Below the pieces are notes generated by a model. It ran no database searches. It was not told the DNA's origin and saw nothing but the letters and a program-made list of their open reading frames with translations. DNA of 33,819 bases from a virus. Every line of letters begins with the position of its first letter. Position 1 is the first letter of the stretch. The stretch spans positions 1 through 33,819 of IMG/VR virus record IMGVR_UViG_3300047510_001102. One strand, 5' to 3'. This document shows, piece after piece, positions 18,165-20,597 of the stretch. The position numbers were made by a program, and so were the translations under genes.

Positions 18165-18213
18165 CATGGGCAGGCGGGGTTCCACTCCTTCCGTAAGACC
18201 CGCCCCCTCCATG
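18165..18213 (+). ncRNA. Stem-loop leader before tRNA-Ile
   Basis: CATGG (18165-18169) pairs with CCATG (18209-18213), and GGCGGG (18173-18178) with CCCGCC (18199-18204), leaving a 20-nt loop. It begins at the predicted transcription start. Function unknown. Confidence 0.5.
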
Positions 18214-18245
18214 CCTCTCATAGAAGCACAAACAGGAGGGTCCCT

Positions 18246-18317: not shown

Positions 18318-18420
18318 CTTGATATGATTGGAAATATCCGATTGTATCATACGTTTCGGGATCATCATATCCGAAACAACCAAGTGCCTGGTACGCAGAG
18401 GGCACTCTCTGCTTTATTAT
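18318..18420 (+). ncRNA. Folded spacer between tRNA-Ile and tRNA-Arg
   Basis: A 103-nt spacer with several helices: TGATA/TATCA, GTTTCGG/CCGAAAC, and two competing ones, AGTGCC (18383-18388) with GGCACT (18401-18406) versus GCAGAG (18395-18400) with CTCTGC (18407-18412). The last is followed by TTTATT. It may guide tRNA processing or partial termination. Confidence 0.4.
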
Positions 18421-19011: not shown

Positions 19012-19482
19012 ATGGATATGATAGAACCTCATTCCACGATACTGGTTCTTAACAGTTCATATGAACCACTTCATTTTACAAATTGGAAAAGAGCAGTTGT
19101 TTTGCTTTTCAAAGAAAAAGCAAAAGTTATTTCAAGTAGAGTAATTAAACTTATAAATTTTGTGAAAATTCCTTTTAACCGACCTTCAGAAACTTTTCCA
19201 TCACGTTCGATGATATATAAGAGAGACAAGAATACATGTCAGTATTGTGGAGCACAAAGTAGATTAACAATTGATCATGTGATTCCAAAATGCAGAGGAG
19301 GAAAGGATACTTGGGAAAATTTAGTTGTTGCATGTTCTTCATGCAATACTAAAAAGGGTGATAAGCTTTTAGAACATACGAACATGAAACTTCGTAAAAA
19401 ACCAAAAGCTCCTCTAAGCAACGTTATGATAGATCTTGAAGAAACAAAAGTTGATCAATGGAAAGAATTCTATTACAGTTGA
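19012..19482 (+). CDS. HNH endonuclease
   Basis: A 156-residue HNH nuclease with a free-standing, bacterial-type layout. The N-terminal domain VLNSSYEPLHFTNWKRAVVL is shared with cyanobacterial HNH proteins. The Zn-binding pairs are C76-x2-C79 and C108-x2-C111, and the catalytic core is IDHVIPKCRGG (D88, H89) with N103 and N112. Likely gained from a cyanobacterial relative (inference). It has its own sigma70-type promoter, so early expression, perhaps host DNA attack or homing, is plausible. A ribosome-type GGAG lies about 9 nt upstream. Confidence 0.87.
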   Translation: MDMIEPHSTILVLNSSYEPLHFTNWKRAVVLLFKEKAKVISSRVIKLINFVKIPFNRPSETFPSRSMIYKRDKNTCQYCGAQSRLTIDHVIPKCRGGKDTWENLVVACSSCNTKKGDKLLEHTNMKLRKKPKAPLSNVMIDLEETKVDQWKEFYYS

Positions 19483-19507
19483 CTTTTTAATAAAGATACT
19501 ATATAAT
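19479..19507 (+). promoter_or_regulatory. Sigma70-type promoter for tRNA-Gly/RNA unit
   Basis: TTGACT (19479-19484), 17 nt, TATAAT (19502-19507). The -35 overlaps the HNH stop codon, and tRNA-Gly starts 12 nt after the -10. Confidence 0.83.
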
Positions 19508-19518
19508 GTATCTTATAA

Positions 19519-19589
19519 GCGGGTATGGTGTAGCGGTAACACGCCATCCTTCCAAGTTGGAATCACCGGTTCGAACCCGGTTACCCGCT
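19519..19589 (+). tRNA. tRNA-Gly (UCC)
   Basis: A 71-nt cloverleaf. Acceptor GCGGGTA pairs with TACCCGC, the D-stem is GTGT/ACAC, the anticodon loop CTTCCAA (TCC) sits on stem CCATC/GTTGG with one T-T mismatch, and the T-arm is ACCGG/CCGGT. It reads GGA. Confidence 0.93.
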
Positions 19590-19959
19590 CTTGGTAGTCC
19601 TTATTAATTAAGCAGACGCCAACTTCTACTACGGGTATCTTCCGTAGCGTCGTAAGGGGATGATTGGGCAGGGTCCTAAGGACTTTGCCTTCTGGGCAAA
19701 GTCCGATTATCCCCTTGGTTCTGGGTGGAACTCCCAGCAGTTCCTTTAGGGACTGTCCTTTGTAGGTTCGATACCTACATCTTCCTTATGGGAGATAAGA
19801 ACGGCTATTGGAGACCACTCTAAATCCTAAGTTCGCTTAGGTCGGGGATTTGATCACCCCCGCTCGTAGGTGCCAAAACCGCTCCTCATCCCTAGTATTC
19901 TGTGGGTGAGTGAATGTCAAGAGTGGGGACATAGGTAAAGTCCTCAACACCTACCATAA
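19590..19959 (+). ncRNA. Unassigned, strongly folded RNA region with permuted-tRNA-like core
   Basis: About 370 nt with no open frame worth naming, but many perfect helices: CTACGG/CCGTAG (19629, 19642); AAGGGGAT/ATCCCCTT (19654, 19709) enclosing a 10-bp hairpin GGACTTTGCC/GGCAAAGTCC (19680, 19695); CTGGG/CCCAG; a canonical T-arm GTAGG-TTCGATA-CCTAC (19762-19778), followed directly by ATCTTCC (19779-19785), which pairs with GGGAGAT (19790-19796) across TTAT; CCTAAG-TTCG-CTTAGG (19826-19841); CGGGG/CCCCG; and a three-way junction closed by GTAGGTG/CACCTAC (19866, 19948). It is transcribed with tRNA-Gly. Not recognised as RNase P, 6S, SRP or a standard tmRNA. Confidence 0.6.
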
Positions 19960-20031
19960 CCTCTGTTAGTCTATTGGTAAGGACAGGCGGACAACGCACT
20001 TGGATACTGGGTTCGATTCCCAGACAGAGGA
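19960..20031 (+). tRNA. tRNA-like element without a usable anticodon arm
   Basis: A 72-nt element, exactly tRNA length. Acceptor CCTCTGT/ACAGAGG is perfect, the D-arm GTCT/GGAC has loop ATTGGTAA, and the T-arm CTGGG-TTCGATT-CCCAG is perfect. The anticodon stem positions (GGCGG and ACTTG) do not pair, and the loop ACAACGC lacks the usual U33. The D-arm is Glu-like. It is either a decayed tRNA or a tRNA mimic. Confidence 0.65.
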
Positions 20032-20035
20032 ACAT

Positions 20036-20108
20036 TCCCTTGTAGTTCAGTTGGTAGAACGGAGGACTGTTAATCCTTATGTCCCTGGTTCGAGTCCAGG
20101 CGGGGGAG
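20036..20108 (+). tRNA. tRNA-Asn (GUU)
   Basis: A 73-nt cloverleaf. Acceptor TCCCTTG pairs with CGGGGGA, the D-stem is GTTC/GAAC, the anticodon loop CTGTTAA (GTT at 20069-20071) is on GAGGA/TCCTT, and the T-arm is CCTGG/CCAGG. CCA is not encoded. Confidence 0.95.
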
Positions 20109-20126
20109 TTTTGCTGAGATATTGGT

Positions 20127-20597
20127 ATGATTTATGTGGATGAAAATTTCTTGTCCATGGATGAATGTGGATACTTTGTAAAATTATTTCTTGAAAATAA
20201 AAATAAAACAAGAGAATATAGAAGCACAAAAATCCTTAGCACAAAACTTTTGTACGATAAGAGTTTAGATGCATCTCTGCAAAAAATTACTAATAAAGTT
20301 AGAATATTATTTGATGTAGATTGTACTTTAAACAATTCTCAATTAGTTTTATGGCCTTCTGGTTCATATCAAAATCCACACTATGACCCTCCAGGAGATC
20401 TGTGTGCATGTATTATTTACTTAAATGATAATTACAATGGTGGATCTACATCATTTAATGAAAACCTTAAAATTAAACCAGAAGTAGGAAAATGTTTAAT
20501 ATTTTCAAACTCTCAATACTTACATTGGGTTGAAAAAATTACAGAGGGGAATAGATATACTCTTTCAACTTGGTTTATAAATAAACTTAATAATTGA
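20127..20597 (+). CDS. 2-oxoglutarate/Fe(II)-dependent oxygenase (prolyl-hydroxylase-like)
   Basis: A 156-residue dioxygenase with Fe ligands H85-x-D87 (NPHYDPPGD) and H133 (QYLHWV), and R143 (GNRYTLSTWF) for 2-oxoglutarate. Strands CIIYLNDNYNGGSTSF and GKCLIFSN match the prolyl 4-hydroxylase fold. It starts 18 nt after tRNA-Asn, so it may be read from the tRNA-Gly promoter. Substrate unknown. Confidence 0.87.
   Translation: MIYVDENFLSMDECGYFVKLFLENKNKTREYRSTKILSTKLLYDKSLDASLQKITNKVRILFDVDCTLNNSQLVLWPSGSYQNPHYDPPGDLCACIIYLNDNYNGGSTSFNENLKIKPEVGKCLIFSNSQYLHWVEKITEGNRYTLSTWFINKLNN

Follow-up and report, generated by a model that had tools for sequence, protein, structure and literature searches.

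A circularly permuted tRNA-like RNA module among exchangeable elements of cyanophage tRNA arrays

The window analyzed here is the entire 33,819-nucleotide virus record IMGVR_UViG_3300047510_001102 (positions 1 to 33,819, one strand, 5' to 3'). Its ribonucleotide reductase and epimerase are nearest to proteins of T4-like Synechococcus phages, with 84-90% identity, and a cyanobacterial host is therefore very likely. The tRNA genes of the window lie on the + strand. Positions 19591-19959 exactly fill the space between tRNA-Gly and an aberrant tRNA-like gene, and the region 19590-19959 folds much more stably than its shuffles (z = -6.3). Homologues of this region were gathered through a flanking ferritin-like protein and through DNA patterns. 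The region and its borders contain the following elements, named M0 to M5 in order:

19519..19590, + strand: tRNA-Gly(TCC), the upstream limit of the RNA region
19591..19622, + strand: M0, a hairpin TTGGTAGTC...GACGCCAA; 11 copies, including L149 and isolate S-SZBM1
19620..19657, + strand: M1, CAACTTCTACTACGGGTATCTTCCGTAGCGTCGTAAGG; nearly invariant in 4 contigs with differing flanks
19656..19714, + strand: M2, a long hairpin; compensatory changes in L124 and L629
19716..19817, + strand: M3, a 102-nt autonomous RNA module with a closing stem P1 around four hairpins; supported by covariation
19820..19863, + strand: M4, two short hairpins; 77 copies, including isolate S-PM2 (L318)
19866..19956, + strand: M5, closed by GTAGGTG/CACCTAC, with an inner hairpin and conserved loop ATAGGTAAA
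19960..20031, + strand: aberrant tRNA-like gene (tRNA-Leu caa according to ARAGORN); about 129 copies in cyanophage loci
20035..20109, + strand: tRNA-Asn(GTT), downstream of the RNA region

The first-pass annotation described 19590-19959 as a single folded RNA, which was not borne out, because other contigs carry its pieces singly or in a different order. Bases 30-124, 126-228, 230-277, and 276-369 of the query were found alone or newly combined in different contigs. Depending on the contig, M3 is directly preceded by tRNA-Gly, M7, M2, or other sequence, and directly followed by M4, M5, M6, the aberrant tRNA, tRNA-Leu, or tRNA-Arg. M3, M0, M1, M2, M4, M5, M6, and M7 are separately exchangeable units between the tRNA genes of T4-like cyanophages. 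At least eight RNA modules recur in the gaps between the array tRNAs; several of them covary, and nearly all are absent from Rfam. Changes on both sides of a pair were found at 10 pairs of M5 (54 distinct sequences), 6 pairs of M6, and 8 pairs of M8. None of the papers found describes such an array as modular.

Elsewhere in the window, between tRNA-Ile and tRNA-Arg (18319-18410), there are more short hairpins (TTGATATGATTGGAAATATCCGATTGTATCA; GTTTCGGGATCATCATATCCGAAAC), which have relatives elsewhere in the arrays. The isolates S-RIM32, DSL-LC03, S-SZBM1, and S-RIM8 (L320, L321, L322, and L323) carry other recurrent inter-tRNA elements, for example GGGGTTCGGCTCTACCCC..AACAAAAGGGCCGCCA and GAGGGTAAGCCTCTGTTATATCC..., and a scan of L321 and L322 gave no Rfam match for these.

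M3 was found in 72 copies in viral contigs, 33 of them distinct, with nearly constant length. Its closing stem P1 is formed by TGGTT (19716-19720) and GACCA (19813-19817). The parts enclosed by P1 are as follows:

19721..19737, + strand: hairpin a, 5 bp with a 7-nt loop TGGAACT, where an anticodon arm would lie; compensatory U-A to C-G in L588
19738..19755, + strand: hairpin b, 7 bp with a 4-nt loop, in the position of a class-II variable arm; 98.9% paired
19762..19778, + strand: T-arm GTAGG-TTCGATA-CCTAC with the loop TTCGATA; 99.2% paired, compensatory U-A to C-G in L588
19779..19796, + strand: acceptor-like 7-bp helix in circularly permuted order (3' strand, TTAT, 5' strand); supported by covariation
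19797..19812, + strand: conserved strand AAGAACGGCTATTGGA with an 8-9 linker, a possible D-strand GAAC, and a D-loop-like CTATTGG

The T-arm and the 7-bp helix that abuts it (ATCTTCC at 19779-19785, loop TTAT, GGGAGAT at 19790-19796) had been recognized in the first-pass annotation, and both were confirmed at these positions and found to be conserved across relatives. The + strand of the window contains nine perfect T-arms, and only the one at 19762-19778 runs straight into a 7-bp helix. When the window was dinucleotide-shuffled 200 times and both strands were read, a T-arm appeared 0.38 times per shuffled window, and a T-arm with an abutting 7-bp helix never appeared. Given a T-arm, the probability of such a helix in random sequence of the region's composition is 0.0023. 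Because of the 0/200 shuffled windows and this low probability, the combination is beyond chance, and it is conserved. Covariation in the relatives also supports the helix, which is 99.5% paired in 26 distinct sequences though all of its pairs vary, with one compensatory change (A-U to G-C).

The whole of M3 behaves in the same way. In the alignment of 26 distinct sequences, 97.9% of cells are paired, and changes on both sides occur at 7 of 29 pairs, including two pairs of hairpin b. None of 500 shuffles matched these pairing and both-sided-change values, and pairing falls to 41-53% when the partners are slid by 1-3 columns. RNAalifold, unaided, gives nearly the same fold. The predicted probability of the T-arm and the 7-bp helix is about 0.9-1.0 in most variants and low in a few (the T-arm in L295; the acceptor-like helix in L559, L077, and L589). 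In the divergent contig L588, the T-stem is GCAGG/CCTGC in place of GTAGG/CCTAC, the acceptor-like helix is GTCTTCC-GCCA-GGGAGGC in place of ATCTTCC-TTAT-GGGAGAT, the closing stem is GCGTT/GACGC in place of TGGTT/AACCA, and a further stem has CCGGG/CCCGG in place of CTGGG/CCCAG. The case for covariation is limited in strength because most double changes come from L588 alone, the other 32 variants being close relatives; one-sided changes that preserve pairing are scattered over these variants. Outside the helices, AAGAACGGCTA and TGG of the strand at 19797-19812 are invariant in the 26 distinct sequences, and the strand that follows the acceptor-like helix, AAGAACGGCTAYTGG, is constant except for Y. 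The D-stem-like GTTC/GAAC is also invariant. It competes with P1 in the predictions, and P1, if formed, excludes it.

A further helix in the first-pass annotation, TTTAGGG/CTCTAAA, proposed as the tmRNA P2 or anticodon stem, was rejected, as its nucleotides belong to the conserved 7-bp hairpin at 19738-19755 and it crosses the boundary of modules that occur separately.

Rfam gave no family for the region, M3 included, at gathering or relaxed thresholds, and the tmRNA, tRNA, and RNase P models that had been named as candidates were among those giving no match. RNase P RNA and group I/II introns had no Rfam support anywhere in the region. M3 was not found by blastn in annotated phages, and when viral sequences were scanned more loosely, everything outside the known set was a chance match. 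The T-arm alone is unusable as a probe, since it matches ordinary tRNAs. M3 is a new predicted structured RNA module, with no counterpart in Rfam or in the isolated phages searched. In a genome collection, matches to TTCG...AAGAACGGCTATTGG failed the M3 profile; coding sequence (KNGYW), not RNA, accounts for them best.

Read as a circle, the helices of M3 follow the order acceptor (7 bp), D side, anticodon-arm-like (5 bp/7 nt), variable-arm-like, and T-arm (5 bp/7 nt). This order and these lengths are those of a rotated class-II tRNA whose acceptor is capped by 3-4 nt, and a 2-nt linker follows the acceptor-like helix before the possible D-stem GAAC/GTTC. M3 is therefore a tRNA-like RNA in circularly permuted form, with the opening on the D side. 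At an 85% threshold, ARAGORN reported a tRNA-like fold in 22 of the 33 circularized M3 variants, which are related and not independent, compared with 24 of 1000 shuffles and 0 of 33 linear M3 sequences; at the default threshold, 1 of the 33 circularized variants passed. The M3 covariance model found, next after M3 itself, a tRNA-Ser/tRNA-Ile junction (L150:2184-2292, E = 9e-4). This junction aligns in register with M3: its tRNA-Ser contributes the anticodon arm, variable arm, and T-arm, and its tRNA-Ile contributes the GGGAGAT with which that gene starts. Weaker matches of the model likewise start in tRNA-Ser genes and extend into their downstream neighbors. In addition, GTAGGTTCGATACCTACATCTTCC of M3 matches the 3' end of a tRNA-Val in the viral contig L021 at all positions but one. 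The junction match and the likeness to the tRNA-Val 3' end are consistent with an origin of M3 from tandem tRNA genes.

The first-pass annotation proposed a permuted tRNA/tmRNA-like acceptor. The helix is real, conserved, and in permuted order, whereas an identity as a working tRNA or tmRNA is not supported (no model match, no U33, no tag, and CCA possible in L588 only). M3 as it stands was not matched by the tRNA model RF00005. The tmRNA models gave no match in 19480-20130 up to E = 10, with L149 and L181 as positive controls at 120 and 107 bits. The M3 sequences have neither the D-loop signature GGxTTCGAC nor a tag frame, and ARAGORN found no tmRNA in the M3 loci; the absence of signature and tag from this locus had already been remarked and agrees with the result of the tmRNA models. 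The anticodon-like loop TGGAAYT and its variants have G at the U33 position, and G3-U70 is not kept (L569, L589). The acceptor loop measures 3-4 nt in all copies; that of L588, GCCA, could be a discriminator followed by CCA. The predicted features do not support M3 as a working tRNA or tmRNA.

Two other unusual RNA genes belong to the same array. One is the aberrant tRNA-like gene, which has a normal acceptor, D-arm, and T-arm, with a covarying 3-bp stem and a conserved GACAA loop in place of the anticodon arm. It is also present in isolates S-PM2, S-CREM1, S-RIM32, S-RIM8, S-SZBM1, and DSL-LC03. The other lies beside tRNA-Ile:

18205..18241, + strand: abiF RNA (RF03085), 44.7 bits against a cut-off of 37

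The isolates S-CREM1 and S-SZBM1 and other contigs also carry this abiF RNA, and its annotation in S-CREM1 has been published (PMC9964418). The Abi_2 protein was found in 0 of 20 related records, and no Abi gene was found among ten window proteins around the abiF RNA. The RNA at 18205-18241, an orphan by these searches, is likely an antitoxin mimic. In Clostridioides difficile, an abiF-motif RNA binds the AbiF toxin directly and neutralizes it in trans (PMC12373285), and the phage PhiTE evades ToxIN through an antitoxin-mimic RNA (PMC3475682). The abiF motif matched only at 18205-18241 and not in M3, and a shared role for M3 does not follow from the abiF neighborhood. By eye, a sequence resembling the abiF motif, under the Rfam threshold and interrupted by a hairpin within its loop, can be seen at L588:7321-7410 (- strand); the divergent M3 copy with the GCCA acceptor loop lies downstream of it.

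The explanation tentatively preferred here is that M3 is a permuted tRNA-like array module, derived from a tandem-tRNA junction, that acts as a decoy in a set of counter-defense RNAs. M3 would arise at the junction of two tandem tRNA genes by keeping their inner halves only, namely the 3' part of a class-II tRNA, a short spacer, and the 5' part of the next tRNA. It would be co-transcribed with the tRNAs and cut free by tRNA processing. M3 could then present its tRNA-like T-arm/acceptor minihelix to a tRNA-binding or tRNA-cutting protein of the host. It would thus be one of a set of phage counter-defense RNAs that includes the orphan abiF antitoxin RNA. The decoy role is favored because an abiF RNA without Abi_2 and an aberrant tRNA share the array with M3.

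Other explanations were considered. M3 might serve the processing or stability of the tRNA operon, with its minihelix recruiting RNase P, RNase Z, or another tRNA enzyme for the trimming of neighbors. RNase P recognizes a coaxial stack of a T-arm and a 7-bp stem, such as M3 has, and M3 stands among tRNA genes in almost every contig, so that no further assumption is required. However, many tRNA gaps in the arrays measure only 1-4 nt without an M3-like element, many related arrays lack M3, and about 100 nt are conserved in M3, which exceeds the needs of a cleavage guide; such a role is considered rather unlikely. The resemblance of M3 to a tRNA-tRNA junction and the shuffling of modules between contigs would also fit a degenerate tandem-tRNA remnant that is moved by homing endonucleases and recombination and is functionless as RNA. 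By eye, open coding sequence similar to the C-termini of homing endonucleases is found immediately upstream in L027, L168, L158, and L550. The compensatory changes and 97.9% paired cells, the invariance of AAGAACGGCTA and TGG outside the helices, and the near-constant length over 72 copies argue against this, and a functionless remnant is judged unlikely.

M3 might also be a precursor from which a true permuted tRNA or a two-piece RNA is made: the 4-nt loop would be excised, the upstream half would receive CCA, and the product would be charged. The permuted order, the 7-bp acceptor abutting a 5-bp T-arm, the 2-nt linker, the possible D-stem GAAC/GTTC, and the potential discriminator and CCA in L588 are consistent with such a precursor, and relatives carry real permuted tmRNAs. 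A short loop also has a precedent, since the intervening sequence of permuted tRNA genes can be as short as 1 nt, in that case with an encoded CCA (PMC3978253). Against this reading, the known permuted tRNAs depend on a splicing endonuclease that acts at a BHB motif (PMC3978253). To our knowledge, that enzyme is not known in bacteria. Moreover, the 3-4-nt loop in all copies, the lack of U33, the unconserved G3-U70 (L569, L589), the lack of any tRNA or tmRNA model match, and the single circularized variant passing ARAGORN at its default make a true permuted tRNA very unlikely. Least credible is that 19590-19959 forms one 370-nt structured RNA closed by TGGTAG/CTACCA (19592-19597/19951-19956). 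This is the minimum-free-energy fold, but the covarying closing stem of M5 takes the same CTACC strand. Because the modules occur separately and reordered in other contigs, the 370-nt closure is not a conserved feature, and the RNA is refuted as a conserved unit.

The idea that a phage-coded permuted RNA would be new was wrong as stated. Phage two-piece tmRNAs are documented, with 53 described, 50 of them from marine or aquatic samples (PMC9004378). Three related loci in this study also carry permuted cyanobacterial-type tmRNA genes in phage tRNA arrays (L149:1930-2230, L181:1562-1861, and L182:996-1295), with the tags ANNIVAFSRSNTTALV and ANNIVAFSRSKSTALV (ANNIVAFSRS...). Like M3, permuted tmRNAs (RF01851, RF04321) have the T-arm and 3' acceptor strand upstream, a short spacer, and the 5' acceptor strand downstream. 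Unlike them, M3 lacks the D-loop signature, tag frame, and model match, and its acceptor is capped by 3-4 nt; the likeness is one of topology only. Algal and archaeal permuted tRNA genes share with M3 the rotated order and lengths of the cloverleaf helices, and a very short acceptor loop is also seen in a permuted tRNA of Thermofilum pendens (PMC3978253). M3 differs from these genes in being carried by a phage, having no usable anticodon loop, and showing no identified BHB junction. Type III antitoxin-like RNAs and their mimics (abiF RNA RF03085; PhiTE pseudo-ToxI) are, like M3, small structured phage RNAs, but M3 fails the abiF model, and no toxin is known to pair with it. The CDS-less tmRNA-like RNA of mycobacteriophage DS6A is tag-less and tRNA-like and, according to PMC11915505, acts by interfering with a tRNA-like RNA of the host; set beside it by description only, M3 differs in being permuted and in having extra arms.

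Phage tRNA arrays are usually read as a means of codon supply or tRNA replacement. It is possible, albeit doubtful, that cyanophage tRNA arrays are cassettes of recombining decoy RNAs against defenses that sense or cut RNA, with M3 and the GACAA-loop tRNA as two undescribed decoys beside the abiF mimic. If the modules are decoys, cyanophages would carry an RNA arsenal against RNA-based immunity, and every module would point to a host defense open to search. M3 may also represent a stage in the origin of permuted tRNA and tmRNA genes from tandem tRNA genes.
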